Below are positions 1,150 to 18,506 of a stretch of 60,770 nucleotides of DNA, one piece after another. Under the pieces are notes generated by a model, which was not told where the DNA came from, did no database searches, and worked only from the letters and a program-made list of their open reading frames with translations. The DNA is from Oligoflexia bacterium (GTDB lineage: Bacteria > Bdellovibrionota > UBA1018): assembly GCA_014376785.1 (NCBI GenBank), contig JACMQW010000035.1:1-60770 (forward strand), given 5' to 3'. The translations under genes and the position numbers were made by a program. Each line of letters opens with the position of its first letter. The stretch's first letter is position 1.

Positions 1150-1225
1150 GGGGACATAGCTCAGTTGGTAGAGCGGTAGCTTTGCAAGCTATAGGTCTGG
1201 GGTTCGACTCCCCATGTCTCCACCA
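1150..1225 (+). tRNA. tRNA-Ala (anticodon TGC), integration site of the downstream element
   Basis: A canonical 76-nt cloverleaf with encoded CCA. The acceptor arms GGGGACA and TGTCTCC pair with one G-U. The D-arm is GCTCAGTTGGTAGAGC. The anticodon stem GTAGC/GCTAT closes the loop TTTGCAA (anticodon TGC), and the T-arm is TGGGG-TTCGACT-CCCCA. The last 20 nt of the gene lie inside the 26-bp direct repeat that bounds the integrative element, so the element rebuilt the tRNA 3' end on insertion. Its intrinsic terminator now sits beyond the element at 13960-13991. Confidence 0.97.
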
Positions 1226-1231
1226 TTTTTC
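1206..1231 (+). repeat. attL: 26-bp direct repeat overlapping tRNA-Ala 3' end
   Basis: Identical base for base to 13931-13956; the match stops at 1205 (C versus T at 13930). It covers the T-loop to CCA end of the tRNA and the following T-run. This is the standard geometry for tyrosine-integrase attachment at a tRNA 3' end. Confidence 0.95.
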
Positions 1232-1249
1232 TCTCAAAAGACAATGATT

Positions 1250-1352: not shown

Positions 1353-2492
1353 ATGGGCTATGTGATTAAGGCATTACCGAAGAACAAGACACGCAAGTGG
1401 AAGCTACAACACGTCAGCTACGCAGGCGACGTTTCCAAGACTACCGACATCCCGGAGAAGAACATGCCCGGCATCGGCTTTTCTCCAGACATGACGATCG
1501 AACAAGCGCGCGTTCGCCGCGATCAGATCAATGCTCAGGAACATCTTAAGCGGCAGGAAAGCCGCCGCGTGAAGATCATTGAAAAATTACTTCATGAAGA
1601 GCTCGTTCAAGACGCGTTCCTCCCCTCCGCACTCGTGAAAGACTTCGAGGAGAACCACCTGTTTGAGCGGATGGATAAGGAATCCGCGAAGAGAAATAAG
1701 GTAGCCTCGCACTGGCGCGCGGCGAAGCGGGTGCTATGCAAGCTGCAGCTCGACGGCAGTGAATGGTACGAGCGCCGCGGGCGCTTCTACGACTTCTTTT
1801 CGAGCCAAGCTTTCAGCCCATCTTACGTTCAAAAGATCATTACGCTCGTGAATCGTTGGGGAAGGTACGAGGCGCGAAAGTCAAAGCGGTTCTTCGAACC
1901 ACTTCCGCTTCCTACCCATAAGGAGCTTCAGACAATCGCCGACGCGTACTTCGATGAGAATGATGGAGAGAGCTTTGAGTCCGCACCACTGACTCCGAAG
2001 ATGCTTGAGTCAAAAAGAAGCGCTATAGATTCTGAGCTTGCGGACTGGCTCTTCCTTTCCGTCTGGCTCGGCTTAAGGCCAAGTGAAGTCGATCTGATGG
2101 CAAAGCCCACCGGGAAGTCTACATGGTGGACAGACTCTGACGACAAAGGCGTTGAAATCCTCTACGTGTATCAACCGAAACTCAAATCGATAGCACGACC
2201 TAAGCGTGTGAAGGCGATTCCAATACTCTTCCCTGAACAAACAGCCTGCCTCAAGATTATTAGGGATGGAAAGTTCCGACGCCCGCTTGCGAAGACTACT
2301 AAGCATCATTTCGGCCCAAACGTTACGACCTACGGAGGAAGGAAGGGCTTCACCGATTTAATGCTCTCTAAGGGTCAGGACTTCATTCACATCTCACGGT
2401 GGCTGGGCCACACGACGGTGGACCGAACTCTAAAGAATTATAAGGATAAGCTGATCGCGAACTACACCCTGCCTTCGAAGGATGCGGCGTGA
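1353..2492 (+). CDS. Tyrosine recombinase (integrase) of the element
   Basis: A 379-residue phage-type integrase that would recombine the tRNA-Ala attachment site. The N-terminal 60 residues (TIEQARVRRDQINAQ) resemble the arm-binding/DUF4102-like region, residues about 95-185 a core-binding SAM-like domain, and about 190-370 the catalytic domain. Visible catalytic residues are Arg242 (GLRPSEV), Arg330 (YGGRKGF), His353 (WLGHTTVD) and Tyr363 (LKNYKD). The usual HxxR histidine is replaced by tyrosine (YGGR). The start follows GAGG at a suitable distance. It reads into the element from attL, as is typical. No separate excisionase is obvious. Confidence 0.95.
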   Translation: MGYVIKALPKNKTRKWKLQHVSYAGDVSKTTDIPEKNMPGIGFSPDMTIEQARVRRDQINAQEHLKRQESRRVKIIEKLLHEELVQDAFLPSALVKDFEENHLFERMDKESAKRNKVASHWRAAKRVLCKLQLDGSEWYERRGRFYDFFSSQAFSPSYVQKIITLVNRWGRYEARKSKRFFEPLPLPTHKELQTIADAYFDENDGESFESAPLTPKMLESKRSAIDSELADWLFLSVWLGLRPSEVDLMAKPTGKSTWWTDSDDKGVEILYVYQPKLKSIARPKRVKAIPILFPEQTACLKIIRDGKFRRPLAKTTKHHFGPNVTTYGGRKGFTDLMLSKGQDFIHISRWLGHTTVDRTLKNYKDKLIANYTLPSKDAA

Positions 2493-2543: not shown

Positions 2544-2795
2544 TCAACGACGTCGTGAACTCAGACGGATCACGTTATCCGGCAGCTCAAGTGACTCAGC
2601 GTCTTCGAAGGATTCAAGTGCTGTCCGAACTATCGCTAGTCCGTCCGGATAGTCGGCCGCGAAGCGAAGGAAAAGTTTCACAAGCTGACCAAAGGATAGA
2701 ACAGGGTATTCGCGCATGCGCTCGGTAGAGCAAGTACGATGCCGATTTAGAAGTCGCGCATACGATTCACGCGAGTGTCCGGTGTCAGCGACCAT
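2544..2795 (-). CDS. Small hypothetical protein, element-borne
   Basis: Up to 83 residues, not recognised. The C-terminal 55 residues (YPVLSFGQLVKLFLRFAADYP) look like a genuine folded segment. The start is uncertain: the first ATG (2795) overlaps the upstream gene by 49 bp, whereas an internal ATG at 2717 would remove the overlap, and neither has a convincing ribosome site. It converges on the integrase gene. It may be a continuation of the upstream reading frame broken by a frameshift. Confidence 0.4.
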   Translation of the reverse strand: MVADTGHSRESYARLLNRHRTCSTERMREYPVLSFGQLVKLFLRFAADYPDGLAIVRTALESFEDAESLELPDNVIRLSSRRR

Positions 2796-3013
2796 TCGAT
2801 GAACATAGCTGACCAGACGGTAATCTCCATTCCATCTAGGGACTCATTGAGATGATGAAGACTCGCTCCCATGCGGCTTGCTATCTGTTCGTGCGAGAAG
2901 CCAGACTTCTCTATCGCGGTGAGAAGATCGGCGCGTGCTACCACATACGTTCCGCGCGATGTTCGTTTCCAGATTCCCAGTCTGAGTTCGGGACGCGACT
3001 TTTTCGCCATCAA
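2747..3013 (-). CDS. Small putative helix-turn-helix protein, element-borne
   Basis: An 88-residue protein rich in basic residues at the start. The middle region (LLTAIEKSGFSHEQIASRMG, about residues 30-49) has the spacing of a helix-turn-helix. Its start overlaps the stop of the preceding gene by 4 bp (ATGA), so the two are probably translationally coupled. A regulatory role next to the integrase, for example as repressor or excision factor, is only a guess from position. Confidence 0.5.
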   Translation of the reverse strand: MMAKKSRPELRLGIWKRTSRGTYVVARADLLTAIEKSGFSHEQIASRMGASLHHLNESLDGMEITVWSAMFIEWSLTPDTRVNRMRDF

Positions 3014-3303
3014 GCAGGATCACTTCCGTAAAGTTTTAAGGCACCACGGCAGACGGCTTCTTCATAGGTCTCACCGAACGCGGTTGCATGCTCCTTGCCG
3101 TCATCATGGCTCAACCTCAGCACTACCCCGTCGGTTTCGTCGTACTTAAAGTGAAAACCTTCCATCCCGAGTTTGAGAGTGATCAGCGAGGCGGCATCCG
3201 GGCATGTTGAATACGGCTTCGTTTCGTCTGATATAAACAGTTTTCTTGCTACGAGCCGGTCAAGATCGCGGCCCGGCTTCATCTCACGGTGTGGAGGTCT
3301 CAT
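3010..3303 (-). CDS. Small phage-type protein resembling the phage ABA-sandwich family
   Basis: A 97-residue protein whose central part (TLKLGMEGFHFKYDETDG, then GKEHATAFGETYEEAVCRGALKLYG) matches the look of small phage proteins with a beta-strand, a strand and a helix ending in an A-x-C-R-A-A-L motif. I recognise the pattern but the family assignment is tentative. A GAGGAG sequence abuts the first ATG (3303); Met8 (3282) is an alternative. It heads a three-gene minus-strand group with overlapping ends. It supports a phage ancestry for the element. Confidence 0.55.
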   Translation of the reverse strand: MRPPHREMKPGRDLDRLVARKLFISDETKPYSTCPDAASLITLKLGMEGFHFKYDETDGVVLRLSHDDGKEHATAFGETYEEAVCRGALKLYGSDPA

Positions 3304-3475: not shown

Positions 3476-3877
3476 CTATCCGAGAACGGCGATAACCAAA
3501 CGCACTGAAATCGTGAAGCAGACCGCAACGCCTACCACATACGAGATCGATCGCATCGGTTGCATCGCGCGAAGCAACGCTACGGAGTGCAATACCTGCG
3601 ACAGGAAGTATGTCCCGAAGAGCACGGCGCAGATCATTGGACGACCACCGGTGAGCACGTCCGCTAGAGCGAGAAACAAGAAGAGCGGGACGTTCTCCAA
3701 GTCATTTTCCCACAACCACCCTGCTCGCTCCGCAAGTGGCGGCTCAGCCCCAAGCTTCAACCTACCTTTGCTTCCGAACGCGGCGACATCTTCGGGAGTG
3801 GTGACGACACCGGCACGTGAGCGGGCGACGCCCTGGACGACAGAGTTTGAAAAGAGCTTCAGTCGCGAACTAACCAT
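3476..3877 (-). CDS. MAPEG-family membrane protein, microsomal glutathione S-transferase-like
   Basis: About 133 residues from ATG 3877. It carries hallmarks of the MGST1 branch of MAPEG proteins: TTPEDVAAFG near residue 30, ERAGWLWENDLENVPLF in the middle, then hydrophobic helices (FLALADVLTG, CAVLFGTYFLSQVLHSVALL, SYVVGVAVCFTISVRLVIAVL). These proteins conjugate glutathione or reduce lipid peroxides in membranes. The N-terminal helix is shorter and less hydrophobic than usual (SSRLKLFSNSVVQG), so the protein may be clipped. The open frame extends to 3967, but that start would lie inside the upstream gene. It overlaps the upstream gene by 8 bp, which suggests coupling. Confidence 0.75.
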   Translation of the reverse strand: MVSSRLKLFSNSVVQGVARSRAGVVTTPEDVAAFGSKGRLKLGAEPPLAERAGWLWENDLENVPLFLFLALADVLTGGRPMICAVLFGTYFLSQVLHSVALLRAMQPMRSISYVVGVAVCFTISVRLVIAVLG

Positions 3878-4181
3878 TAGCGTGGCAGGTCGCTTTCTCA
3901 GAGATGCATGAATTTCCACAAGCCTTGCCGTGCTTGCATTCCTTCTTTCTTGCAGTGGTAGCGTCAACCGACGGAGCTACGACAGCGCCAGTAGCTGCTG
4001 CAGGGGCTGCTGCTTCGGATGTAGTCGCGGACGTTTCGCCCTTGTGACAGACGTCGTCTTTCGAGATGCACGCGTTCCCGCAAGGCTTACCTTTGGAACA
4101 GTGTTTAGCAGCTAAAGCAGCTGGAGCAGATGCGAGTGCAAAAGTAACGATCAATGCGGAAAGTACAGAGCGGATGTTCAT
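3870..4181 (-). CDS. Small exported protein with two cysteine-histidine motif copies
   Basis: A 103-residue protein with a clear signal peptide (LIVTFALASAPAALA, cleavage about residue 24). The mature part has two copies of one motif: HCSKGKPCGNACISKDDVCH directly after the signal and ECKHGKACGNSCISEKATCH at the C-terminus. An Ala/Thr/Ser-rich linker of about 35 residues joins them. Each copy conserves C-x5-C-x3-C-x6-C-H. Disulphide-bonded or metal-binding mini-domains are likely, and function is unknown. It is followed at once by the MAPEG gene, with which it shares a transcript by spacing. Confidence 0.75.
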   Translation of the reverse strand: MNIRSVLSALIVTFALASAPAALAAKHCSKGKPCGNACISKDDVCHKGETSATTSEAAAPAAATGAVVAPSVDATTARKKECKHGKACGNSCISEKATCHANG

Positions 4182-4336: not shown

Positions 4337-4705
4337 CTAGGCTGCTAACTTTGAAACCAGTGCTAACAGTTTCTCAAGATCAGTCGGCTTTTTGAGGAAT
4401 GCCCGCGCGCCCTCTGCAGTCTTCTCGTCTGCGTTCGCGGAAACAACAAGCACCGGGATCGTTCCCAAAATCGGGTCAACGAGAAGAGCGTCGAGGAACT
4501 CACGTCCGGTCATTACCGGCATCATAAGGTCCAGAAGAACGACGCTTGTTTTTGGAAATATGCGGAGGGCGTTCATACCCTCTTTCCCGTTGGCGGCGGT
4601 AACGACTGTGTAGCCGTCACTTTCCAGCGCCTCTTGGAGAGTCGCGCGAATGCTCTCATCATCTTCAACCACTAATACGACTTTACCGGTTCCGATCTCA
4701 CTCAT
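4337..4705 (-). CDS. Stand-alone response regulator receiver protein
   Basis: A 122-residue single receiver domain with no output domain. The acidic pair lies at Asp15-Asp16 (VVEDDESIR), the phospho-acceptor is Asp59 (LLDLMMP), followed by Ser89 and Lys106 (KKP). The start at 4705 overlaps the kinase stop by 4 bp (ATGA); upstream in-frame starts fall inside the kinase gene and are unlikely. It should receive phosphate from the adjacent kinase and act by protein-protein contact. Both are cargo of the integrative element. Confidence 0.92.
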   Translation of the reverse strand: MSEIGTGKVVLVVEDDESIRATLQEALESDGYTVVTAANGKEGMNALRIFPKTSVVLLDLMMPVMTGREFLDALLVDPILGTIPVLVVSANADEKTAEGARAFLKKPTDLEKLLALVSKLAA

Positions 4706-6639
4706 ACGTGCAACCTTGAGTCCCTTGGTAGACGAACAATGAATGTCGTGCCGAGCGCCGCCGTGCTTTCGACTCGCACGGTGCCTCCTTGAGCTTCTGT
4801 CATTCCTTTTACGAGCGTCAAGCCGATTCCCCATCCCTTTAGACCGCCACCCAGAGCGGTAGTAGTCCGCCGGTAAGGATTGAAAAGTACTTTTTGGTCG
4901 GCTTCGAGAATCACTTCTCCTTCGTTATGGACGGCGAACTCTACCCACTCTGGACTCGCATTGAGACGAATGGTGACCGGCGCCGCCTCATGCCCATACT
5001 TGATCGCATTTCCGGTCAGGTTCTCAACGATTCTCTGGACTGCACTCTCGTCCCAGAAGCCGGCGACATGGCCGACTTCATTGTTCGTACGAATACGCGG
5101 TCCGTGAAGATTGGCGAGGTCGTTCACCGTGGATTCGATGATTTGGTCGATTCGGCATTCTTTAATCGAAAGAGGAAGCGGTTCCCCGGCGCGAATGCGA
5201 CTTACATCGAGAAGATCTCGAATCATCGCGTCCGCGCGGTCCATGTTCACGACGATCCGATCGGCGAGCTTGGAAACTGTCGCTGGATCACCGGGGCGGC
5301 GAAGGATGAGCTGAGCCGTCATCTTACCCGCGGTCATGGGCGTGCGCAGGTCGTGGGTGAGAGAATCTACGAACTTCTCCCGAAGAGCGCGCTGCTCTTC
5401 GAGGTCGCGAATCGCTTTCTTCTCGTCGTCGATGTCCGTACAGGTTCCAAACCAATAGGAGATCTTCCCAGTATCTGCCGAGCGCACGGGGGTGCCGCGA
5501 GTTTTGAACCACCGGTAGGCACCGTCGTGGCGGCGAATACGGTACTCGATGTCATAGTCGTGCTTGCCTTCGACCGCACCAATCCAATGTACGAGGGTCC
5601 GCTCGCGGTCTTCCGGGAAAATGACCCGGTCAAGCCAGTCTAGGCCGAGTTGTTCGCCCGCCGAGATACCAGTGAAGGCCGCCCACTGTGGACTCAGGTA
5701 ATCGCATTGACCATCCGGAAGGCACGTCCAGACGAGTTGCGGAATCGTGACCATCATGGTCCGGAATGTCTCTTCACTTCGCTGTAGTGCCTCGGAAGAC
5801 TTCTTCACCGCTTCTTCGGCAAGTTTCCGTTCGGTGACGTCCCAGACGAGTCCCGCCATTCGAACCGGATGGCCATTCGTATTGCGCTCTACGCGCGCAC
5901 GGGCGCTGATCCAGTGAAGGCTTTCATCGGCCCAGATTACGCGGCACTCGAAATTCAATTCGTCCTTGCCGGCCGCCGTTACGGCGTGTGCAGCCCTGAC
6001 TCGCTCAACATCTTCCGGATGGATGTGCCGAAGCGCATGCTCAAGCGTCCACTCTGGCTGAAGCTCCTTATAGCCGAAACACTGATCGTGCTTGAGCGAG
6101 CGAAATGCCTTACCGGTGATGAGGTTTAATTCCCAGTCGCCCATGCCCGCGGCATTTAGAGCGAACTTCATCCGTTCTTCGGATTCTTGCGATTTATTTT
6201 TAGCTTCTAAACTTTCCTGTTCCTTCTTCTGAAGCTCGGTCACTTCCTCAGTACGATGGATAATATATTCAACTTCGCCGCTGCGACCAAGAACCGGGGT
6301 GTTCGAAGGACGCCAGAATTTTTCGGTAAACCCTCCGTCCTTTCGCTGGATCGCGTATTTCACGATCGGCATGACATCCGGTTTCCGGGTTTCAAGCACC
6401 TTCAGAAGCGAGGAACGCCAAACCTCAAATCCCGTCGGATCATTCGGGTCATCGGGAAGAACTTCGAAAATAAATTGTCCGAGAGAATCCTCGCGATCAA
6501 CCTGAGCTGCGTTAGACAATTCGTCTGTGATCGCAACGAGCTTCAGTTCGTGGTCGAGGACAAGGTAGCTCCCAGGAACGGAGTTAAACAATTGAAGGAA
6601 GTTGGGTGCAGGCAATGCTGAAGTCACGGACGCTACCAT
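4702..6639 (-). CDS. Multi-PAS sensor histidine kinase
   Basis: About 645 residues from ATG 6639 (an in-frame extension to 6753 looks non-coding). It contains three PAS-type domains in its first two thirds (VPGSYLVLDHELKLVAITD; a PAC-like MGDWELNLITG region; IPQLVWTCLPDGQCDYLSPQW). A HisKA domain follows with phospho-acceptor His429 (SLTHDLRTPM), then an HATPase domain with N-box NLTGNAIKYG and G-boxes near the C-terminus (GWGIGLTLVKGM). No membrane helix is visible, so it is a cytosolic sensor. It forms an overlapping pair with the receiver gene. Three successive PAS domains suggest a redox, ligand or light cue, not determinable here. Confidence 0.93.
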   Translation of the reverse strand: MVASVTSALPAPNFLQLFNSVPGSYLVLDHELKLVAITDELSNAAQVDREDSLGQFIFEVLPDDPNDPTGFEVWRSSLLKVLETRKPDVMPIVKYAIQRKDGGFTEKFWRPSNTPVLGRSGEVEYIIHRTEEVTELQKKEQESLEAKNKSQESEERMKFALNAAGMGDWELNLITGKAFRSLKHDQCFGYKELQPEWTLEHALRHIHPEDVERVRAAHAVTAAGKDELNFECRVIWADESLHWISARARVERNTNGHPVRMAGLVWDVTERKLAEEAVKKSSEALQRSEETFRTMMVTIPQLVWTCLPDGQCDYLSPQWAAFTGISAGEQLGLDWLDRVIFPEDRERTLVHWIGAVEGKHDYDIEYRIRRHDGAYRWFKTRGTPVRSADTGKISYWFGTCTDIDDEKKAIRDLEEQRALREKFVDSLTHDLRTPMTAGKMTAQLILRRPGDPATVSKLADRIVVNMDRADAMIRDLLDVSRIRAGEPLPLSIKECRIDQIIESTVNDLANLHGPRIRTNNEVGHVAGFWDESAVQRIVENLTGNAIKYGHEAAPVTIRLNASPEWVEFAVHNEGEVILEADQKVLFNPYRRTTTALGGGLKGWGIGLTLVKGMTEAQGGTVRVESTAALGTTFIVRLPRDSRLHV

Positions 6640-6817
6640 GCGGCAGGATGGGCAGAAAATCAAGGCACCCCCACGAGCCCTAAAACCGGCTTCAAACGGC
6701 CTCAGGGCGCGGCGAAGTCGCGTAGTCTGCTTCACCGCGGAAGGTTTGATCAAAGACTAAAGGTCGGTTTTAATATCGCCTTCATTCTAACGGGTCCCAG
6801 AGTGAAGTTAATGAAGA

Positions 6818-7315: not shown

Positions 7316-7355
7316 TGTCCACTACAAAATTGTAGTTGTTTAAATGTAGTGGACA
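7316..7355. promoter_or_regulatory. Palindromic operator/resolution site upstream of the RHH gene
   Basis: TGTCCACTACA at 7316-7326 and TGTAGTGGACA at 7345-7355 are perfect 11-bp inverted arms. A nested palindrome ACTACAA-AA-TTGTAGT occupies 7321-7336, so the hexamer ACTACA/TGTAGT occurs three times. A -10-like TATAGT lies at 7369-7374 and the right arm covers its -35 position. Ribbon-helix-helix proteins commonly bind such repeated hexamers in front of their own gene; alternatively it is a res site for the serine recombinase. Confidence 0.55.
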
Positions 7356-7385: not shown

Positions 7386-7613
7386 ATGGTACTGAAACGA
7401 GCTGAGCCCAAAGATAGGAACCGTTACGGGACGCCGCAGTCCTTTCGCCTCGACGACGAGGTCGCGGTACGCCTCAAGGTTCTCAAGGAATTACTTAATA
7501 AGAGTCAGGCTTTGATTATCGAAGAACTAGTCAACGCGGAGTATGGTCAGCACGAAAAGAGACAACCCAAAGAACTGGCCGTCGCCCGTACCGTAGTTAT
7601 TAAAAAGAAGTAA
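7386..7613 (+). CDS. Ribbon-helix-helix DNA-binding protein
   Basis: A 75-residue protein with the ribbon-helix-helix layout: a short strand (PQSFRLDDE, residues 17-25), helix A (VAVRLKVLKELLN) and helix B (SQALIIEELVNAEY). A basic tail follows (KEKR- and IKKK-type). Such dimers bind paired operators. It lies 30 bp downstream of a nested palindrome and 22 bp ahead of the serine recombinase gene, so autoregulation and control of the recombinase are likely. It could also be the accessory DNA-binding factor of the recombinase. Confidence 0.75.
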   Translation: MVLKRAEPKDRNRYGTPQSFRLDDEVAVRLKVLKELLNKSQALIIEELVNAEYGQHEKRQPKELAVARTVVIKKK

Positions 7614-7635: not shown

Positions 7636-8259
7636 ATGAACTCGAAATCGAAATCGAAACGCTGCGTGGCTTACGTTCGCACCAGTACGGATCTGCAAGA
7701 TACGGCGATGCAGTCCCGCGAGCTGACTGAGTATGCGCGCCTTCGCGGATGGAACCTCACCGTGGTGTACGACGACTCCGGGTATAAGGGCGGAAACATG
7801 AATCGCCCCGAATTAAATCGCCTGCTCCGCGATGCGCGGTCACGAAAGTTTGACCTAGTGCTCGTCTGGAAGCTCGATCGCTGGGGACGCAGCCTTCGCG
7901 AAATCGTCCTAATGATTCAAGAACTCGCGGACGTTGGGGTCGAGTTTTGTTCGCTCAAAGATAACCTCGATCTGAGTAGCGCCCAGGGACGTCTCATGCT
8001 CCACATGATCGCTGCGTTCGCCGAGTACGAGGCGGAAGTTATTCGCTCCCGCGTGCGCTCAGGGATCGCGAACGCACGGGCGAAGGGCGTGAGGTTTGGT
8101 CGGCCTAAGACACGGGACGATCACGAGATCCGACGCCTTCGATCGGACGGGCTCTCTCTGAGAAAGATCGCGGCGAGACTTGGTGTCGCTAAAGGCACAG
8201 TGCAGAACGCACTCGAAGGGTGGACAGAAAACCCCATCCGAAAGACGTCCTCCAGCTAG
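7636..8259 (+). CDS. Serine recombinase of the resolvase/invertase family
   Basis: A 207-residue small serine recombinase. The catalytic domain spans about residues 8-145 with nucleophile Ser17 (YVRTSTDLQ), the conserved KLDRWGRSL segment (79-87) and a dimerisation helix E (AAFAEYEAEVIRSRV). A short linker (GVRFGRPK) leads to a C-terminal helix-turn-helix (residues 172-193, LSLRKIAARLGVAKGTVQ). It would resolve multimers, invert DNA or move DNA between short sites. It follows the ribbon-helix-helix gene in an apparent two-gene unit inside the integrative element, which already has a tyrosine integrase, so a resolution role is the more likely one. Confidence 0.93.
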   Translation: MNSKSKSKRCVAYVRTSTDLQDTAMQSRELTEYARLRGWNLTVVYDDSGYKGGNMNRPELNRLLRDARSRKFDLVLVWKLDRWGRSLREIVLMIQELADVGVEFCSLKDNLDLSSAQGRLMLHMIAAFAEYEAEVIRSRVRSGIANARAKGVRFGRPKTRDDHEIRRLRSDGLSLRKIAARLGVAKGTVQNALEGWTENPIRKTSSS

Positions 8260-8475: not shown

Positions 8476-10137
8476 TCAATCATTGTCTTGATCCATCCAT
8501 TCGCGAAACGAACGGGGCTCAATGTGTCCAAAGTTAAAACCACAGATCGCGTCGAAAGATCTGACTTCGAGTAGGCCACCGTCTATCCGTTCGAAATTCG
8601 CAAGTGCCAGAGCCATTACAATGTCGTCGTGGATCCCTGCACCGGACTCGAAGACGATCTTGCCGGTGCGCGATACACCGTAAGTGAAAGAGCTGAGTTC
8701 TTTTCGGACCGTCTGAATGTTCGGGAGGATTATTTCATTGCGCTCGATCGACACCGCAAGTTTGTTGATGAGTTCCTGCTTGGAAGAATTCGTGAAGACG
8801 AACGGTCGTGTCGAGATACCGAGACGGTCAACAAGCTCCGAGAGGCCGGACCCCACGCCGGTAGCGTCGTAGATCAAAGTCGCATGATTCAATCTTTCAC
8901 AGAGCCTCGCTGCGTCCGGAAGGATTTCAAGGTACGGGACTTTATTCACGCGACGATAGTAAACACACTCGCCTGAAGAAGCGTCGAGCGCGATCATAAC
9001 CGTGAAGTCAACTTGCTTCGCAAGGTCGAGACCAACTACGAAAGTTCGCTTAGCCACGTTCGCTATCGGCGGTGCCCATTCCTGGTTGGCATGAGGAAAC
9101 GAAATCTCGTCACCTTTGATGCAACTGTCGAGTCCGGTAAAGACACCGGTGCCGTCATCAAGGAACTCACCCTCGTATTCCTGTCTGCGAATCCAATCGG
9201 GCATACCAGCCATCAAGTCGATGAGCAGGTTACTGTAACGAGGGTTGTCCCGGTACGTTCGATGAAAGCTAAGGTAGTTTCTTTCTGCGTCGTCCTGGCC
9301 CTTGAGATACAGGTCACGGAACCAGTTACGTCCGCGCGGCGTTGACACGAGAAAAATCTTCGAGCCTTTCTTGCGAGCTGTTCCAAGGATGCGCTGATGG
9401 AAAACTGTCGAGTCACCGATGAGGGCAGCCTCGTCCATAAAGATGCGGTCGTATCCGCGGGAAACAAGTGACTCTGGATTTTCTGCGGAACGGATCGAAA
9501 CGGTTGCCCCATTGGACCAACGGATCTGAAGACCTGATTTTCCCTGAACAACTTCCCAAACTCGGTTGCCGTATTCATCTTCGTCATCGAGAAATCGCTC
9601 GCCGCTATCGTCATCAACACCTTTGAAGAGTTCGTCCACCAAGGCGAGGGCCGATGAGTAATGCGGGGCGACCCATAGGACTTTGCCGTTGGGGGTATTC
9701 ATTAGAAAATCTATAAGGAGTGAACCAGCGAAGATGGTCTTACCGAACCCACGGGCGGCGACGATCGTGACAATCGATGCCGGAGTCGGACTTGCGAAGT
9801 TTGCTTCAATGGCGTCCAGGACGGACTGCTGGCCGGCATGTAATACGAAATTAGGCTTCCAGTTCACCGGTGCATTGCCGAAGATGGAGGAGCCACGAAG
9901 GCGCTGCTCCTGCCGTTCCAAGATACGATCGGCTTCCCGGCGATGGACTGCGGCCTCTCGACGGGCCTTGTGCTTACTCATGCCGTGTATGGCGATGAGA
10001 TTCGCGATCGTACGGGGTGAGCGCTTGAGGCGGAGTGCTATTTCCTTATGGGTCAGGCCGCTGCCCAAATACAACGGGAGTATCTTCCGGGCTAGCTCAG
10101 AGTAGTTTTCGGTGTCGATAGTGTCGTCGTGTTCCAT
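8476..10137 (-). CDS. Terminase large subunit-like protein with N-terminal helix-turn-helix
   Basis: A 553-residue protein with the two TerL modules. The ATPase has Walker A at about 128-134 (ARGFGKT), Walker B at 231-236 (RIFMDE) and a coupling motif STPRG at 265-269. The RNase H-like nuclease has acidic residues Asp371 (VGLDLAK), Asp424 (IYDATGVG) and Asp504/505 (HDDIVMAL). All core residues look intact. The first 60 residues hold a helix-turn-helix (LTHKEIALRLKRSPRTIANL), a feature normally supplied by a separate small subunit. The ribosome site GAGGTAA precedes ATG 10137. TerL packages DNA into procapsids, yet no capsid or portal gene is nearby. Confidence 0.9.
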   Translation of the reverse strand: MEHDDTIDTENYSELARKILPLYLGSGLTHKEIALRLKRSPRTIANLIAIHGMSKHKARREAAVHRREADRILERQEQRLRGSSIFGNAPVNWKPNFVLHAGQQSVLDAIEANFASPTPASIVTIVAARGFGKTIFAGSLLIDFLMNTPNGKVLWVAPHYSSALALVDELFKGVDDDSGERFLDDEDEYGNRVWEVVQGKSGLQIRWSNGATVSIRSAENPESLVSRGYDRIFMDEAALIGDSTVFHQRILGTARKKGSKIFLVSTPRGRNWFRDLYLKGQDDAERNYLSFHRTYRDNPRYSNLLIDLMAGMPDWIRRQEYEGEFLDDGTGVFTGLDSCIKGDEISFPHANQEWAPPIANVAKRTFVVGLDLAKQVDFTVMIALDASSGECVYYRRVNKVPYLEILPDAARLCERLNHATLIYDATGVGSGLSELVDRLGISTRPFVFTNSSKQELINKLAVSIERNEIILPNIQTVRKELSSFTYGVSRTGKIVFESGAGIHDDIVMALALANFERIDGGLLEVRSFDAICGFNFGHIEPRSFREWMDQDND

Positions 10138-10347
10138 GGTCTTTACCTCGGATGTCGCTGGTCCGTGAACGCCCTTCGGGACATGCGCTGACTGCCGTTA
10201 GCGCCACCTTATCAGCAAGCTTTACTGGCCCTTAGGATGCTTCGGGATGTCGGGGTGGTAATCACCGCGGATCGGGCCGTAAGGCGCAGACGCGGGCGTT
10301 TAAAGGGTATGCGTTTGGTAATGGCGGGCGGTTTCCCGCGGATGACT

Positions 10348-10893
10348 TTAACGTCGCCCACTGACGATCTTCTTCTTAATTCTCGAAACCAGTCCTGTGG
10401 TTGAGGACTCGGCAGTAGGCTCAATCTTTGGCTCGATTGGCCCCTGGCTTCGTCTCAACGTGCCTACCCTTCGCTCTTCGAGTTGGATCAGCGTTTCAAG
10501 GATTAGATCTGGATGGAACCGATACTCCCTAGCCAGCTCTGAAATCTCTGCACCGGCATTGAAGTCTGCTTGGATTGATTTCACCGTCGCGAGGGGGATA
10601 ATCTTGGTCATTTCTTCAGCTACGAATACACGCCGCCGCTCTTCCTCGGCCAGTGCGTTCGCAATCTGAAACTTTTCGTAGAGTTCTTTCTGCTCTGGTG
10701 TCGGAGTTTTCAGATCAGGATAACAGCTTGGCCCACGTCGATTCCAGATCACTGCCTCAACTGCACGTTGCGCATCTACGGCAGACTTAAATCCGTCGCC
10801 CGCAGATTTAAAATCGTCGTAAGGATACGCGGCAGAGAAGGTTCCATCACTACGCTGGGTGACATTTCTAAATTCAGTTCTTCCGTTACTCAC
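10348..10893 (-). CDS. Hypothetical protein with AP2-like N-terminus and C-terminal helix-turn-helix
   Basis: A 181-residue protein. Residues about 8-52 (FRNVTQRSDGTFSAAYPYDD, then SAVDAQRAVEAVIWNRRG) show the strand-strand-strand-helix pattern of AP2-type DNA-binding domains. Residues 115-138 (AEISELAREYRFHPDLILETL) resemble a helix-turn-helix. It overlaps the upstream gene by 4 bp and precedes the terminase gene by 210 bp. A DNA-recognition partner of the terminase or primase is conceivable; no family is confidently recognised. Confidence 0.6.
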   Translation of the reverse strand: MSNGRTEFRNVTQRSDGTFSAAYPYDDFKSAGDGFKSAVDAQRAVEAVIWNRRGPSCYPDLKTPTPEQKELYEKFQIANALAEEERRRVFVAEEMTKIIPLATVKSIQADFNAGAEISELAREYRFHPDLILETLIQLEERRVGTLRRSQGPIEPKIEPTAESSTTGLVSRIKKKIVSGRR

Positions 10894-11231
10894 CGTTGGC
10901 TCCGCTTCTTTGGAGTTTCAGACCGGGCTGAGGCTGAAGAGGTTGCCTGGCTAGCGGTGTGTTCCATCAGCGTCGCTAAACCCTCAGAGATGTGCCCCAA
11001 CATATTCTTGATCTCGGTAAGTTCTTGCTCAATCGTTTTATTTCCGTCTCCACCGGGGGTAACAGTGGATCCGGTAGCTTTTCTGGTCGCAGCGGTAAGC
11101 GCTTTAAATCCGGGAGTGGAAAGAGCCACCTTGGTAGCTTTCATGTCGGCGAGGTGTTTATTGATCTGGTCCACCAGACTTACTGTCGCGGTGTGATTGG
11201 TACTTTTATTCGGGGGGAGTTTTTTGTTCAT
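10890..11231 (-). CDS. Small hypothetical protein with short coiled coil
   Basis: A 113-residue protein with a basic N-terminus, a Thr/Ala/Gly-rich centre and one predicted amphipathic helix (IEQELTEIKNMLGHISEGLATLMEH). The Ser/Arg/Lys-rich tail overlaps the next gene by 4 bp. It lies between the primase and the AP2-like gene on the same strand. No recognised family. Confidence 0.55.
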   Translation of the reverse strand: MNKKLPPNKSTNHTATVSLVDQINKHLADMKATKVALSTPGFKALTAATRKATGSTVTPGGDGNKTIEQELTEIKNMLGHISEGLATLMEHTASQATSSASARSETPKKRSQR

Positions 11232-11268
11232 ATCGGTCCTCTAATGTGGCGCATTTATTTAAAGGGAT

Positions 11269-11369
11269 GATCTCGATGCCCACGTCGAAAGCGCCAGCTT
11301 GAGGGGAGCACCGAGATCAGAGGTGCCGCGAGCTGAGAACTGAAGGATTGAACGGTGATCAGCTCGCGG
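11269..11369. repeat. Two successive inverted repeats downstream of the primase gene
   Basis: GATCTCG (11269-11275) pairs with CGAGATC (11312-11318), and CCGCGAGCTGA (11326-11336) pairs perfectly with TCAGCTCGCGG (11359-11369). The 165-bp gap contains no gene. Candidates are an attenuator, a single-strand initiation site or an origin for the primase. No T-run follows either stem on the transcribed strand. Confidence 0.4.
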
Positions 11370-11396
11370 GCCTCAAAGGTATTATACGAAATGTTT

Positions 11397-13034
11397 TTAG
11401 ACGATCCTGGCGCGCCACGCGTGTGTGGTTTCCACAAGCCCGTCGATCGCTTCGACGTCGGCCGAGCAGCCGTCTTGAATCTCGGAGCTCCGGAGAACCT
11501 TGTCGGTCAGCAGCTTAATTGAATCTTCGATCCCAACCCCTGCAAGGGCGAGCTTTCGGCTATCTACCCGTAGGCCGGTGTTCCGTTTGCCCGACGTATA
11601 GACACCCGGAATTAGCTCTCCGGACGTGTTGACTCGGTTATGCTGGCCGAGCACCTGCACCAGTTTTCTGTGAATCGAATACACCGTCTTCTTACTCCTC
11701 TTAGGATCGCTGTGGCGCTCAGCCTTGCTCTTCATAGGAAGCAGGTCCTTTATGTTGATCTTTCGACCGACTCGCGAGAGCCGGTAAATCGTATCGTGAA
11801 GCTCGCGGTAACGGTTTCCCTTTCCATCCAGAGACAGTCTAAAGCCGTCATTGAAGAATACCTCGCCTCGCTGCGAGTACCTTGCTACGTGAGACAGCAA
11901 TGCGATTTCATTCTGCGTTAGAGAGTCCTTGATACGGAACGTGGTTCTGAAGCGATCAAGGACTTCGTGCGATAGAGTTACGGCATGCCGATTAACTAGC
12001 TCCTCCGCGCCACTCTCGAGTTGAAGTTCCTGCGGTGTAACTATCGGCACGTCCTGTTTCTCGGTACGGTCACCTATTCCATCTTCACCGGTGATCTCTA
12101 GGATCATTGAAAGCATATTATCGTAAGTTGTAGCCGGCTCGCCTAGCGCAGCTTCCAGCGTTTGGCTGTTCTTATGGTACCTGCAAAGCTGAGGTCTTCG
12201 GCCTTTCGCCGGCTTGTGGTTGAGTGTGCCTGGCACTCTTAATACTCTCGTCACATCGGTGGATTCAGAATCACCGCGGAGGTGCAGTGATAAGACCCTC
12301 TGCGCGGCTTGGTACTCTTTGATGACGTCTTCGTTCAACTGCTCTCCGTAGACTTTTGAACTGGCGCTTCGGAATCGTTTATAGCCGAGTTTCACCGGGG
12401 GGATTGACCAATATAGGTGGTAGCGGTTTCTGGACGACTCGACGATAACATCGGGTTTGATCGGGAGGTCGGCGAGCCTTCGTGCGAGTTGAACTGCGCT
12501 CGTCGCTTGGTCCAGATCGACGAAGAAAAATCGAATTACTGCCACGACCTCGCGCCTTCTACCAGAACCTGGCTTCGACATAAGTCTTTTCAGTGACTGG
12601 AACTTTCCCGTTCGGTAGGTCGCCAGCAAGTTCGGGTAAAAGTAGATGTTAGACCGAGTCTCAATCTTGTGAGCGCTCTCGCTCGTAAGCAGTTCACGGC
12701 TTCCACTCAGCCCGCTAAAAAAATTCCGTCCGATAGTCTTTAAGCGCTTTAGGATCGCTGTACCGCTCAGAATGAACCGAGCTTGCGTCGGCAGATTCGT
12801 CAGAACCGAGAGCGCGCGAATTTGGCGTCCGAGTCTAGCTCTTCGCCTTGGATGGTCTTGGCTATCGGTCAGCTGCTGAGCAGTTTCTTTGATCAGTTCT
12901 CTGAGTTCGTGGGGAGACTTACCGCTCAGTCGGTGCTCGCTTGTTATCTTCCGGATCAAGTCTGAGTTGGTTAGGACTCTGAGCGCTTTGACTTGTAGAA
13001 CCTTAAGCTGATCGTTTGAACTTCTTGTCTTCAT
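11397..13034 (-). CDS. RepB-type primase (archaeo-eukaryotic primase fold), replication protein of the element
   Basis: A 545-residue protein. Residues about 165-290 carry the motifs of RepB-like primases: FFVDLDQ with metal-binding Asp173 and Asp175, a following VVESS-type strand, RYHLYW with His206, and DVTRVLRVPGTLNHKP. The N-terminal 130 residues are helical and basic. The C-terminal part (SLTQNEIALLSHVARYSQRG) could be a helical DNA-binding or primase-associated domain. No helicase motif is visible. The start is supported by AGGAGGGA 6-8 nt upstream of ATG 13034 and a strong promoter at 13061-13089. It probably primes replication of the excised element. Confidence 0.85.
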   Translation of the reverse strand: MKTRSSNDQLKVLQVKALRVLTNSDLIRKITSEHRLSGKSPHELRELIKETAQQLTDSQDHPRRRARLGRQIRALSVLTNLPTQARFILSGTAILKRLKTIGRNFFSGLSGSRELLTSESAHKIETRSNIYFYPNLLATYRTGKFQSLKRLMSKPGSGRRREVVAVIRFFFVDLDQATSAVQLARRLADLPIKPDVIVESSRNRYHLYWSIPPVKLGYKRFRSASSKVYGEQLNEDVIKEYQAAQRVLSLHLRGDSESTDVTRVLRVPGTLNHKPAKGRRPQLCRYHKNSQTLEAALGEPATTYDNMLSMILEITGEDGIGDRTEKQDVPIVTPQELQLESGAEELVNRHAVTLSHEVLDRFRTTFRIKDSLTQNEIALLSHVARYSQRGEVFFNDGFRLSLDGKGNRYRELHDTIYRLSRVGRKINIKDLLPMKSKAERHSDPKRSKKTVYSIHRKLVQVLGQHNRVNTSGELIPGVYTSGKRNTGLRVDSRKLALAGVGIEDSIKLLTDKVLRSSEIQDGCSADVEAIDGLVETTHAWRARIV

Positions 13035-13089: not shown

Positions 13090-13391
13090 GCCAGACTCAG
13101 CGCAGAGTTGCTCACTGAACAAGCACTTTACACTATATACACTAGTCCTGATTACTACGTGAAGAATAACACTAGAGATAACGCTGACTAAGAACAGCAG
13201 CTTGAGAAGATGCTGACTACACAGCAACTGTAGAAACAGAGCAGAGCAAGCCACCAGATCGAGACGCGTTTCGTGTGCGCCCGCCCCCGTGCCGAGAACG
13301 CATTGACCACGCTCATCCAACGATTCATGTTCAGAATAGAGCCCTGCGCACGACGTTCGGGGCAAGTCACACAGCCAAGGAAGGCACTGTT

Positions 13392-13850
13392 ATGAAGATA
13401 AAAAACTGCGAGTGGATTTTGCCAAGGAAAGACTCTCGGTCCCCAACAACCATTTTCGGATTTAGAGCTCTCAAGAACAGGGTGTCTGGTGAGCTTTCGA
13501 TCTTTGGAAAATACGGAGAAGTCTGGGACTGCGATGACGGCGTTCATTTTAAAGTCCTGATTTACTCAGAGACAGGGGGTTTTACAGCCAAAAAGATCGC
13601 CGCAGCTGCCTCCGCTAGTGGGGTAGCCACCGGCCCTCGCCGATCGGTTTATAAGGTCGAAAAGACCCTCCTAGCTCAGATTCTGAAGGCAATTAGAATT
13701 CCCGTTAACCCTGGCCGCCAGGTCGCCTACTACAAGCGGGCCTATCATCCCATGCCAGCTCCGAAACCAAGCGCGCTATCTCAACCAGCATCTCTCGCTA
13801 TCGACCCTCAAGCTTCAGTCACACCAGTGATGCAAGCCGCAGCCTTCTAG
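13392..13850 (+). CDS. Hypothetical protein at the right end of the element
   Basis: A 152-residue protein starting at ATG 13392, chosen because AAGGAAGG lies 7 nt upstream; the frame is open further 5' but without a start signal. Residues 1-60 look like beta-strands (SGELSIFGKYGEVWDCDDGVHF). Residues 65-110 are basic and helical (FTAKKIAAAASASG, VEKTLLAQILKAIRIP), and the tail is Pro/Ala/Gln-rich. No family recognised. It reads towards attR and is divergent from the primase. Confidence 0.6.
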   Translation: MKIKNCEWILPRKDSRSPTTIFGFRALKNRVSGELSIFGKYGEVWDCDDGVHFKVLIYSETGGFTAKKIAAAASASGVATGPRRSVYKVEKTLLAQILKAIRIPVNPGRQVAYYKRAYHPMPAPKPSALSQPASLAIDPQASVTPVMQAAAF

Positions 13851-13916: not shown

Positions 13917-13926
13917 TCGGACACGG
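13917..13926 (-). promoter_or_regulatory. Inverted CCGTGTCCGA copy next to attR
   Basis: TCGGACACGG is the exact reverse complement of the ten-mer at 1271-1280 beside attL and ends 4 bp before the attR repeat. Matching copies in mirrored orientation near both ends suit integrase or excisionase arm sites. Confidence 0.4.
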
Positions 13927-13930
13927 GTAT

Positions 13931-13956
13931 GACTCCCCATGTCTCCACCATTTTTC
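13931..13956 (+). repeat. attR: 26-bp direct repeat, partial tRNA-Ala 3' end
   Basis: Exact copy of 1206-1231. The sequence 5' of it no longer resembles a tRNA, so this copy is non-functional as a gene and marks the right boundary of the element. Confidence 0.95.
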
Positions 13957-13959
13957 AAT

Positions 13960-13991
13960 AAAAAGGCTGCCTCTTCGGAGGTGGCCTTTTT
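13960..13991 (+). terminator. Intrinsic terminator, probably the original one of tRNA-Ala
   Basis: GGCTGCCTC-TTCG-GAGGTGGCC forms a stem with two G-U pairs and a UUCG tetraloop, extended by A-T pairs and followed by TTTTT. It starts 4 bp after attR. In the empty chromosome it would lie a few bases after the tRNA-Ala CCA end. Confidence 0.85.
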
Positions 13992-14098
13992 ACTTTCAAG
14001 CGGAGGCTAGCGCGGGAAATATCGGCTCCGTAGCTTTCACAGAAATTCCTGGAGCTGGACGACCGAGTGATGGTCGCCACGCCGATCGAATCCTAAAT

Positions 14099-14962
14099 TT
14101 AAATATCCAACATTATGCCCAAATACCCGAAGGTCACGTGCGTGTCCTTGTAGTAATAATACTTCAGGCGCGGGTCTGGACCCGAATAAAAACCGGCCGT
14201 ACAGCGAAGAGAATTAAAACGTTTCGGATCGCGATGGTTCCCGAAGTAAACGCCTACCTGGCTGTGCAAGCTGACTTCTAAGCTATTATGCCCATATTCC
14301 TCAAGACCAAAGGCGAAGTACGGAGTGGGAACCGAATAGCTTTTGGCTCGCCCCCATGGGTACCATTCAAGAAATTGGTTTCCTTGAAAGAACTTGGACT
14401 TCGGTTCCGACTCGAAAAGCGGCTTCAGTGTGAACCCCGGCCGAAAGAATTCGCTCCCGTCGTAGATCACTCGTATGGGGAACGCGTCCACGCCGAGGTT
14501 CAATGGTAGGAGATCGAGATCTTGCGGTAATGCACTGTCATTCACGTGTCCTGAGGCGTGGCTGAATCCGAAACTGAGAAGCCACTCCGGACTGAGTCTC
14601 GTGTCCCAAGTGATTTCAACGCGCGCATCTGCCGTTTCAGGCGAGAGCCCATCCTCGAGGCGAAACGCCGTATTGACAGAGGCGCTGACCACGAGTTGTG
14701 AAGCTTCGACGCCTTGACCGCGGCCTAGCAGCGCAAAAGTAGCACCGAGTGCACCCCAAGCGCGGCCTGCATTTCGATAGATCAACGTCGTTTGATTATC
14801 GATGAAAAGACCATAGGTTTGGTAACGCTGATGATGAGACTCCGGCAGAAAAGTAGTATCTGCACCTCGAGAATTCAATGGGGCAGCAAGGAATCCAATA
14901 AAACCCATCGTGAAAATGGTGAATTTAAGAGAGGGGCTTCCAAGAAATTTGAGTCTTTTCAT
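14099..14962 (-). CDS. Putative outer-membrane beta-barrel protein
   Basis: A 287-residue protein with a signal peptide (FTIFTMGFIGFLAAPLNSRGA, cleavage about residue 34) and alternating hydrophobic/polar strands throughout. It ends in a strand with aromatic spacing (VTFGYLGIMLDI), typical of barrels inserted by the Bam complex. Segments such as HHQRYQTYGLFIDNQT and FLEWYPWGRAKSY remind me of DUF1207-type proteins, but this is not certain. It is the last gene of a four-gene minus-strand envelope group and follows the lipoprotein gene by 14 bp. Confidence 0.65.
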   Translation of the reverse strand: MKRLKFLGSPSLKFTIFTMGFIGFLAAPLNSRGADTTFLPESHHQRYQTYGLFIDNQTTLIYRNAGRAWGALGATFALLGRGQGVEASQLVVSASVNTAFRLEDGLSPETADARVEITWDTRLSPEWLLSFGFSHASGHVNDSALPQDLDLLPLNLGVDAFPIRVIYDGSEFFRPGFTLKPLFESEPKSKFFQGNQFLEWYPWGRAKSYSVPTPYFAFGLEEYGHNSLEVSLHSQVGVYFGNHRDPKRFNSLRCTAGFYSGPDPRLKYYYYKDTHVTFGYLGIMLDI

Positions 14963-14976
14963 AAATTATCCAGTAC

Positions 14977-15684
14977 TCAATACGCATCACGCCATCCAGT
15001 GGTAAAGGTAGGATCCCCCGAAATCGACAACGGTAGGAGTGGGTCGGTATTCCAGTTTTGTAGAGACGGCGGTGCGGGCGAAGCTGGCTGTGATGAATTG
15101 TCGATATAGACGCAAGCCAACAGAGAAGTGCCGTTCGGCAAAGATGCGGTTCCCGATGGGCCGATTCCAGCCAACCACCCGGAGAAGCAACTTTCACTCG
15201 GATTAAGGGTACAACCCGTGCTGTCATCGCAAGTCACAGTATCGCCAGGGATCGTTGTCGAACTCTGGTAAAAAGCAGTTGCCGACTCGATAGAGCCGGC
15301 GAAGAAATCTTGCCAAAGCGAACCACAAGTTGCGTAAAGGATCCCGGTTGAATCCTGGAACGAACCGCCCGCATTGTTTGCGACTAGTAAAACGTACAGA
15401 ATGCCTCCGCTGAGAGCCGACGAACATTGGTTGAAGGAGCCCGACCCCGGAGTGCAATTCATGCGAACTTTACGGCTGAAACTCGTGCCAGCGCAACTTG
15501 CTGACCCTCCGATGGGGACACGCCGGGCATCTAACGCGTAACTTCGGCAGCCGGGCTCGTTCATGAATCGATCGACAACTCCGCATCCGTGCGTTCCGCA
15601 ACTTGAAAGTAAAAATCCGCAAATTCCGATCACACATACTACCTCAGCGAAAAGTAAAAAATATTTGCGTGAAGTCTTTCGCAA
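14977..15684 (-). CDS. Cysteine-rich putative lipoprotein
   Basis: A 235-residue protein beginning with TTG (15684), supported by GGAGG 5 nt upstream. A hydrophobic signal ends in a lipobox, LLSSC with lipidated Cys29. The mature part has many cysteines (CGTHGCGVVDRFMNEPGC, then CDDSTGCTLNPSESC) and Gly/Ser/Thr-rich stretches, so it is probably disulphide-stabilised and surface-exposed or periplasmic. It overlaps the upstream barrel gene by 41 bp. No family recognised. Confidence 0.75.
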   Translation of the reverse strand: MRKTSRKYFLLFAEVVCVIGICGFLLSSCGTHGCGVVDRFMNEPGCRSYALDARRVPIGGSASCAGTSFSRKVRMNCTPGSGSFNQCSSALSGGILYVLLVANNAGGSFQDSTGILYATCGSLWQDFFAGSIESATAFYQSSTTIPGDTVTCDDSTGCTLNPSESCFSGWLAGIGPSGTASLPNGTSLLACVYIDNSSQPASPAPPSLQNWNTDPLLPLSISGDPTFTTGWRDAY

Positions 15685-16786
15685 AATCGCCTCCGATCAT
15701 CAGCTCGATTCCCGAAAAGGCCTGATACGCGATACCCATTGTCGCGTGTAGGCGGCCTCTAAGTCCCGACCGGCGGGAGGTTTCATAAAAACTACCGAGC
15801 AACAGCCGCGGCGGTACGCTTAGTCCGACATCAATCGGCGCCTGGAATCCGATTCTCGGCTGGATAGCCACCGTACGCCCTTTCTCACGAATCCTACCCT
15901 CGCCCAGCGCTGCCGCAAAAGTATCGTAATTGAGCAGAAAGCCATCAGTCGTCGGGCCAATCGCGTCAAGCTCGGCTAGGAAAATTTTTCCCCGTGAGCC
16001 GGGATTCCATCTCGCTCCGACAGCCCAAATCCATGGGTCGTGGAGGGCAAGTTCCTCCCTATATTGAATCTGATTCGAATACGCTTGAGTATCAAGTTCG
16101 ATGCGTATGTTACGCGTGGAGGGCAGCTTAAACCAGCTCCCAAACTCCCAATCGCTCCGAAGCGGCTGGTAAATACCCCCGAAGCGAAAACCCCACTGAA
16201 TCGGAGCGCTCTGCGGAGAGGCAACCGCACGGCTTCCATTTTCTCCCGTAAGGGTTTGGGACCATAGGGAGGCGGATACCGCGCCCCCCAATGAAAACTT
16301 GTGAGAAGCTCGAAATGCTAACGGAATTCGGAGATCAAACGATCGCGAGCGAGCCGCGAGAGGAAATCGCTGCGTAAACCCATTTTCATCGACGACCGAT
16401 ACGCTAGAAGCCACGCGCTCTTGTCGTCCGGAAAATGCGATGGCCATTCCCCACAGATCCCCCGCCCACCCAATACCGCCCATCACTGAACTTTCGCTGA
16501 CGTCATTTGACTCCTTCATTCCGGGTTCAAGATTACTCGAGCCATTATAATCGCCATCGAATGCCCAAGTCGGTTCGCGAGCGGTCAATGCAGCGGGGTT
16601 TTGGAAAAAAGAGTTTTCGAGGTCTGGATCGGCAGCGCAGGCACCCCCAATTGCCGAACAGTAGTGGCCTTTCGGGTAGTCGGCGCGGTAGAGATCATAC
16701 ACGCGCGCGTGTGCCGGACTCATTCCGATGCCTACTACCGAGAGCAAAGCCAACAATAGACTGAACCCTGTCTTTTGAATATCCAA
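15644..16786 (-). CDS. Putative outer-membrane beta-barrel protein with FadL/PorV-like look
   Basis: A 380-residue protein, TTG start (16786), signal peptide FSLLLALLSVVGIGMSPAHA. Early mature residues (SAIGGACAADPDLENSFFQNPAALTARE) resemble the N-terminal segment of transport barrels that mention an 'NPAAL' motif. It ends in GGDFAKDFTQIFFTFR, an aromatic-terminated strand. It probably sits in the outer membrane with the neighbouring barrel and lipoprotein, and it follows the CPBP gene after 41 bp. Confidence 0.7.
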   Translation of the reverse strand: MDIQKTGFSLLLALLSVVGIGMSPAHARVYDLYRADYPKGHYCSAIGGACAADPDLENSFFQNPAALTAREPTWAFDGDYNGSSNLEPGMKESNDVSESSVMGGIGWAGDLWGMAIAFSGRQERVASSVSVVDENGFTQRFPLAARSRSFDLRIPLAFRASHKFSLGGAVSASLWSQTLTGENGSRAVASPQSAPIQWGFRFGGIYQPLRSDWEFGSWFKLPSTRNIRIELDTQAYSNQIQYREELALHDPWIWAVGARWNPGSRGKIFLAELDAIGPTTDGFLLNYDTFAAALGEGRIREKGRTVAIQPRIGFQAPIDVGLSVPPRLLLGSFYETSRRSGLRGRLHATMGIAYQAFSGIELMIGGDFAKDFTQIFFTFR

Positions 16787-16827
16787 ACACCACCTATTTC
16801 ATTCGATGCGGGTATGGGAAAAGAGTA

Positions 16828-17931: not shown

Positions 17932-18001
17932 TCCTCAAGAGTAAAAGAAATTCCGAGCTCCGCAATCGCGCAATCAAGCTCACCGAAATAACTGAGTATT
18001 A

Positions 18002-18031
18002 TTGTCAATTATTTAGAATCTTTGTTAGTAT
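18002..18031 (+). promoter_or_regulatory. Candidate promoter of the decayed lipoprotein gene
   Basis: TTGTCA (18002-18007), an 18-bp spacer and TAGTAT (18026-18031) lie just upstream of ATG 18034. It is better conserved than the gene it serves. It is also divergent from the CPBP gene. Confidence 0.45.
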
Positions 18032-18033
18032 TA

Positions 18034-18506
18034 ATGAACAACCATCGTATGAAGTCATACTAATCACACGTATCGCAACCTTACACTTTTCTCATCCTCG
18101 GAATCCTAGTCGCACCCCTCAGCGCCTGCGTTCAAAGTGAAGACGCTTCATACGGCACCGAGGATTCAATCAGCGTTACAGAGCCACCGTTCTCGAAGAC
18201 GTGCTTACGCATTATTCGCGTCTCCGGGAGGAAGAATCCGCGACCATATCCGGGACAAAAGCGCCCCCGCGGTGGCAGGAAATGACAGTGCCAGAACTTT
18301 ATTTCAGGTTCCCGGCCCACTCTTCACCGATCTGGAGATAGATGGTCCCGACTGAGTCGTCGGTATTCCAGGCCAAGCCCCGCTCTTGATGGTTCCGGGC
18401 TCGGCTATCGCTATCGCGGAACTTGCTGCCTACTCGGGTACGGTTCCATCAGCAAATCGGTGGCTCTCTAGAATGATTTCTGCCGGGTATAAAGAGATAC
18501 GGGTCA
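18034..18506 (+). pseudogene. Decayed lipoprotein gene with nonsense and frameshift changes
   Basis: Starting from ATG 18034 or 18049 the frame reads a few residues and hits TAA at 18061-18063. The same frame then continues as a textbook lipoprotein signal (TFLILGILVAPLSAC) and a short acidic mature part (VQSEDASYGTEDS) before ending at TGA 18283. A +1 frame takes over (GNDSARTLFQVPGPLFTDLEIDGPD), stops at 18353-18355, and resumes as coding-like sequence (VVGIPGQAPLLMVPGSAIAIAEL, about 18356-18424). At least two stops and one frameshift are needed to explain this. The original product is unknown. Confidence 0.55.

Follow-up and report, generated by a model that had tools for sequence, protein, structure and literature searches.

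A 12.7-kb tRNA-Ala island of a Bdellovibrionota bacterium with a phage terminase large subunit as its sole detected head gene

The island and its genes

The stretch of DNA analyzed here—the window—comprises 60,770 nucleotides of the genome of an Oligoflexia bacterium (Bdellovibrionota; 103 contigs, 97% complete). Near its left end lies a discrete insertion of 12.7 kb, bounded by a 41-nt direct repeat, the two copies of which are 88% identical and 12,725 nt apart. The left copy coincides with the 3' end of a tRNA-Ala gene, and between the copies the element carries its own integrase, primase and resolvase, and a single phage head gene, that for the large subunit of terminase (TerL). In a congener, G001, the same tRNA gene is uninterrupted and both of its flanks match those of the window—the left-flank genes at 61% and 52%, the right-flank genes mostly at 63–83%. 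This is the empty site, defined gene by gene rather than at base resolution of the junction, the inner right flank being partly different. The features of the occupied site are as follows.

1150..1225 (+), tRNA-Ala (TGC), the integration target (ARAGORN)
1200..1240 (+), attL, the 3' end of the tRNA-Ala gene, repeated at 13925-13965
1353..2492 (+), tyrosine integrase, 379 aa (phrog_1 integrase, 1.6e-4), with relatives in Bdellovibrionota islands and in phages
2544..3303 (−), three small cargo ORFs of 83, 88 and 97 aa, no PHROG match
3476..3967 (−), MAPEG-family membrane protein, cargo (Pfam MAPEG, 4e-18)
3870..4181 (−), 103-aa cysteine-containing ORF, no family match
4337..4834 (−), single-domain response regulator (Response_reg, 2e-19)
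4702..6753 (−), PAS histidine kinase, signalling cargo (PAS_3, HisKA, HATPase_c)
7316..7355 (no strand), perfect 11-bp inverted repeat, TGTCCACTACA/TGTAGTGGACA, immediately upstream of the RHH–resolvase operon; a candidate operator or res site
7386..7613 (+), ribbon-helix-helix (RHH) regulator, 75 aa (RHH_1, 0.0023, slightly under the gathering score)
7636..8259 (+), serine resolvase, 207 aa (Resolvase, 9e-42)
8476..10137 (−), TerL, 553 aa (Pfam Terminase_6N, 8e-11; PHROG phrog_2 'terminase large subunit', 5e-44)
10348..10893 (−), putative regulator, 181 aa, with an AP2-like N-terminal motif seen by eye (BLAST E 0.002 to the 174-aa protein of L030/L037)
10890..11231 (−), 113-aa small protein
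11268..11369 (no strand), two inverted repeats between the primase and the small operon; a candidate origin or terminator
11397..13034 (−), RepB-type replication primase, 545 aa (RepB_primase, 1e-6; phrog_10514 DNA primase, 3e-8)
13275..13850 (+), right-end ORF, 191 aa, start uncertain (possibly 13392), no family match
13925..13965 (+), attR, the second copy of the 41-nt repeat

The terminase and the primase lie where the first-pass annotation of this DNA had placed them and, with the 113-aa and 181-aa genes, form one leftward block. The primase has a single weak match (34%) among 291 genomes of the phylum, at a locus (L006) among whose few ORFs no island is recognizable. Relatives of the integrase, mostly at 35–47%, come from MAGs labeled, for example, Bdellovibrionales, Bacteriovoracaceae and Oligoflexia, and from six IMG/VR contigs; integrases of the same family occur together with TerL on IMG/VR phage contigs (L076–L079) and in a locus that resembles a prophage (L069). 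Set among 523 background ORFs, the 174-aa protein of L030/L037 is the best match of the 181-aa protein (shuffle z 5.5), whose predicted model is of low confidence (pLDDT 60.6) and too poor for a fold search. The 97-aa cargo ORF matches Phage_ABA_S at 7.7e-4, below the gathering score.

Just to the right of attR is a 29-nt inverted repeat, 76% complementary, with arms at 13987-14015 and 15587-15615, 1.57 kb apart. From about 14,000 to 21,300 the window has little similarity to G001, and synteny returns near 21.7 kb; variability at this locus may extend past the right border of the island.

The terminase

TerL has the two parts that define a large terminase subunit, an ASCE ATPase with Walker A and B motifs and an RNase H-fold nuclease with its acidic residues, laid out as a helix-turn-helix (HTH) at residues ~14–50, a long helix at 55–82, the ATPase at ~92–330 and the nuclease at ~328–518. 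Against the sequences of the PDB, the nuclease of G20c/P74-26 TerL is matched at 3e-21 and the ATPase at 1e-5; the predicted model (pLDDT 80.7) superimposes on 5m1o, the G20c nuclease, with Z 24.8, and on 4znl, the P74-26 ATPase, with Z 24.2. The first-pass annotation held that the Walker motifs and the nuclease acidic residues are kept, and they are: G132/K133 of Walker A, E236 of Walker B, and D371 and D504/D505 of the nuclease are invariant in alignments of 6 and of 40 TerLs. D235 of Walker B is nearly invariant in both, and D424 is invariant in the alignment of six. Judged by these residues and by the fold of the predicted model, the enzyme appears to be intact.

The relatives of TerL in IMG/VR phages are mostly ~400 aa long, and their matches mostly start near residue 97. 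Beyond their span the window TerL has an additional N-terminal HTH region of ~95 residues, modeled as helices at 14–24, 30–39 and 41–50 and the long helix at 55–82, and matched over residues 22–81 by phrog_664, 'DNA binding protein' (2.5e-5). This region could be a built-in small subunit (TerS). In the structure search none of the PDB entries listed covers residues 1–86, which is not evidence of novelty. Kinship with the HTH proteins of two sister islands (L030, L171) or with the TerS of a third island (L170), all described below, was looked for, and none is detectable.

In a quick tree TerL sits on a long, unplaced branch (1.59), with no close phage TerL in that tree. A single-sequence search of GTDB contigs and IMG/VR found no close relative, and a search of 97 related genomes found no copy besides that of the window. 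In one of the closer cases among the IMG/VR phages, L083, a portal gene follows TerL (phrog_2662, 1e-132).

Virion genes, helpers and particles

With a cutoff of E ≤ 0.1, scans of main and minor ORFs of the window by Pfam and/or PHROGs brought up no gene for a portal, a capsid, a tail or a protease, as the first-pass annotation had it for portal, capsid and tail in the 12.7 kb, and TerL is the only head gene detected in the island; no further structural genes or pseudogenes, such as a prophage remnant might retain, turned up either. Nor did we find an AlpA-type inducer or a capsid-remodeling gene in the island. It has no match to the capsid-size genes of PHROGs, divergent versions of which could escape such a search.

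In the host genome the Terminase_6N match is confined to the window TerL, and there are no matches to PF04586, PF04860 or PF05876 (S78 protease, portal and GpA terminase, respectively); with these four families, no helper prophage was found in the 103 contigs. IMG/VR yielded no packaged relative of the island, and no exact match to the att pattern, which is a weak test.

Sister islands and other relatives

Two islands, each from another genus within the bacterial family of this host, are in part laid out similarly. The first, L030, is 11.9 kb long and lies at tRNA-Met with an att repeat of its own. Its integrase is 44% identical to that of the window, and its resolvase 34% identical over 185 aa (2e-29). 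From the integrase it runs through a CBASS cyclase, response regulators and the serine resolvase to a leftward block, the products of which are a phrog_4756 protein, a coiled-coil-like protein, the 174-aa protein mentioned above, an S78 prohead protease in the place of TerL, and an HTH protein. The second island, L171/L175, lies beside tRNA-Cys and has the same leftward block; its S78 protease, also in the place of TerL, is 33% identical to that of L030. Its resolvase is clearly related to that of the window, and the window integrase found no integrase in its genome; a contig end cuts the island off on the right. Two-component signalling cargo is common to the window island and its sisters.

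Whether the three form one island family depends on the gene compared. Integrase and resolvase are clear for L030, and the resolvase is clear for L171. The 181-aa regulator is weakly similar to its counterpart in L030 and not significantly so to that in L171, and the 113-aa protein is equivalent in position to the coiled-coil-like proteins of both, with sequence similarity that is not significant. A profile of the three 174–181-aa proteins matched, in 369 genomes of the phylum, only their own three genomes and one more, weakly; in IMG/VR it matched nothing.

Both sisters have further genes of interest. In the primase position of L030 (9669-10919) the phrog_4756 protein, of 416 aa, has PolA-like motifs by eye (DFSALHPRL, HDSF). 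The CBASS cyclase of its cargo (2498-3553; PADLOC, 4e-95) is flanked by ORFs that may be its effectors. Near tRNA-Cys, L175 encodes a 490-aa candidate defence protein (8620-10092; PDC-M36A, 3e-11).

The genome that hosts L030 (G008) also has a tailed prophage, apparently complete and with a GpA-type terminase, downstream of tRNA-Arg on contig 76 (L174, L176, L177), so that a sister island shares its genome with a prophage that might serve as its helper. The L030 protease has no significant similarity to the protease-capsid protein of this prophage, so nothing indicates that it was acquired from there recently.

Among the 97 relatives, Terminase_6N occurs in three and S78 in three. A third island with lone head genes, L170:1740-9966 (G023 contig 32), is small and encodes a DUF927 primase-helicase, integrases, TerS (phrog_4102, 1e-32) and TerL (phrog_38, 6e-98); host genes follow without an intervening portal or capsid gene, and its borders are undefined. 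A tRNA-Asn island in G008 (L186:4624-10700, contig 72) has no terminase but encodes a related resolvase, an integrase-like protein and a primase-polymerase-like protein of 782 aa; none of the islands with related resolvases (L185–L192) matched the terminase or S78 queries used. TerL is present on small plasmids of other phyla, too. One of these, the 14.9-kb Salinibacter plasmid pSR14 (L004), encodes a primase, a tape-measure-like protein and a TerL that is divided between two neighboring ORFs.

Comparison with known systems

SaPI/PICI and P4-like satellites resemble the island in being integrated in the chromosome, with a replication gene of their own and no virion genes, but they redirect the helper by TerS, Rpp, scaffold proteins or cos sites, not by their own motor ATPase (PMC10690885, PMC11389934). 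P4-like elements combine a P4-type primase-helicase with sid, delta and psu; the primase of the island matches RepB_primase, instead. PICMIs are marked by an integrase, AlpA, a DUF3987-type primase and Fis (PMC10803314), whereas the island has no AlpA or Fis Pfam match and its primase is RepB-type.

On the preference of satellites for TerS over TerL, the first-pass remark is largely correct, with exceptions: cf-PICIs and the Streptomyces satellites MulchRoom and MiniFlayer, likewise small, encode their own TerL along with a full head set (PMC10690885). No counterpart of their TerS, portal, capsid or connectors was found in the window island; nor does the island pair its terminase with an MCP and protease of its own, as capsid-forming PICIs do.

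Closer in economy is NitKor-E1 of Thaumarchaeota, described as having an integrase and a terminase, with no other Caudovirales gene, and as being of 'enigmatic' function and likely a relic (PMC6563490). It differs in having separate TerS and TerL and an archaeal host, and the passages on it mention neither primase nor resolvase. The putative satellite phage ML_43_3791, a 15.8-kb scaffold from a glacial virus-fraction metagenome (PMC4490671, Table 5), shares terminase, resolvase, prim-pol and integrase with the island; going by its description, it differs in its P4-type integrase and prim-pol, its ParB and its tail-like gene. The Wolbachia plasmids pWCP and pWALBA1 are plasmid-like replicons with TerL, but pWALBA1 has portal and coat-like genes too, and the TerL of pWCP is decayed (PMC9560607). 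In view of cf-PICIs, NitKor-E1, the glacial scaffold and the Wolbachia plasmids, elements of this kind are already known, and the island is therefore a variant. The protease-only sister islands look new when set against the published satellites compared here, none of which is described as intervening at the motor or the protease step by means of a single gene.

What the island might do

In the general sense of an integrated element without the genes for a full virion, the island qualifies as a satellite by its att repeat, integrase, empty site and want of structural genes; its mobility is predicted. We go further, and read it as an integrative phage-satellite-like element of Bdellovibrionota that would package its own DNA, with its own motor, into the procapsids of a helper. 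We give this reading about an even chance. It rests on the kept active-site residues of TerL, the absence of structural genes or their remnants, the tRNA- and att-bounded insertion with its occupied and empty forms, the replication gene, and the recurrence of similar islands, each with a single enzyme of head assembly and with defence genes among its cargo. Since its motor looks intact and comes without shell or tail genes, and since its sisters have a lone shell-maturation protease, a satellite that acts at an unusual step is what the island most likely is. Several things count against this: no helper prophage found in the host genome with the four families, no packaged relative in IMG/VR, no AlpA-type inducer or capsid-remodeling gene found, homology to the sisters that is weak for the 181-aa protein and not significant for the 113-aa protein, no detectable kinship of the TerL HTH with the HTH proteins of the sisters, no integrase detected in L171/L175 and a contig end across its right side, and related resolvases in islands without head genes. 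The first-pass annotation had suggested either a satellite that redirects a helper's procapsid with its own motor or a plasmid-like element that kept TerL for another use. Of the two, the satellite is favored here; the redirecting is conjecture, as the four families found no helper prophage in this genome and IMG/VR no packaged copy.

Were this so, replication of a helper phage would lead the island to excise. The excised island would replicate from its own primase and express TerL, the N-terminal HTH of which would bind the packaging site of the island and render a separate TerS unnecessary. TerL would dock on the helper's portal and pump island DNA into helper procapsids; the helper would supply capsid, portal and tail, and the serine resolvase would sort multimers of the circular form. 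The sister islands would act at a neighboring step, with a head-maturation protease and a separate HTH protein. Induction, excision, portal docking, N-terminal recognition and the helper itself are the parts of this scheme that we infer.

The island might, alternatively, be a plasmid-like integrative element in which a TerL taken over from a phage serves some purpose other than packaging—as a DNA-translocating nuclease, for example—or is a recently acquired passenger. The RHH regulator, the resolvase and the RepB-type primase fit this idea, as do L186, built along the same lines without TerL, and the small plasmids of other phyla that have TerL. But the motor and nuclease residues are kept, three further islands have lone head genes, and TerL shares its leftward block with regulator-like genes; we find this alternative fairly unlikely, and the satellite reading better supported. 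A decayed prophage that has lost its structural genes would account for integrases of the same family in phages and a prophage-like locus, but not readily for intact TerL active residues with no detectable remnant of a structural gene, for a TerL without close phage kin in the quick tree, or for similarly laid-out sisters with a different single head gene; we consider it unlikely. That TerL is an anti-phage weapon, which would compete for the helper's portal or cleave phage DNA and would serve the protection of the host, not the transfer of the island, is suggested by the defence genes of the sister islands and is unlikely for an element that has a replication gene of its own and an integrase of full length, and among whose scanned ORFs no defence gene was recognized.

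To return to the satellite reading, we suggest, tentatively and with some doubt, that these islands represent a satellite family of Bdellovibrionota, each member of which would hijack its helper through a single late head enzyme: a motor with a fused site-recognition domain, or a maturation protease with an HTH protein. A full-text literature search for Bdellovibrio prophages and satellites returned, going by titles or abstracts, nothing on Bdellovibrio satellites. Where a terminase occurs in an element with no other virion gene, as in NitKor-E1, it has previously been put down as a relic or an enigma (PMC6563490). The kept catalytic residues, the lone TerS-TerL island and the protease-only sisters turn the matter into a testable proposition, that procapsids can be stolen by just a motor or a protease. 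If true, it would extend phage satellites to Bdellovibrionota.
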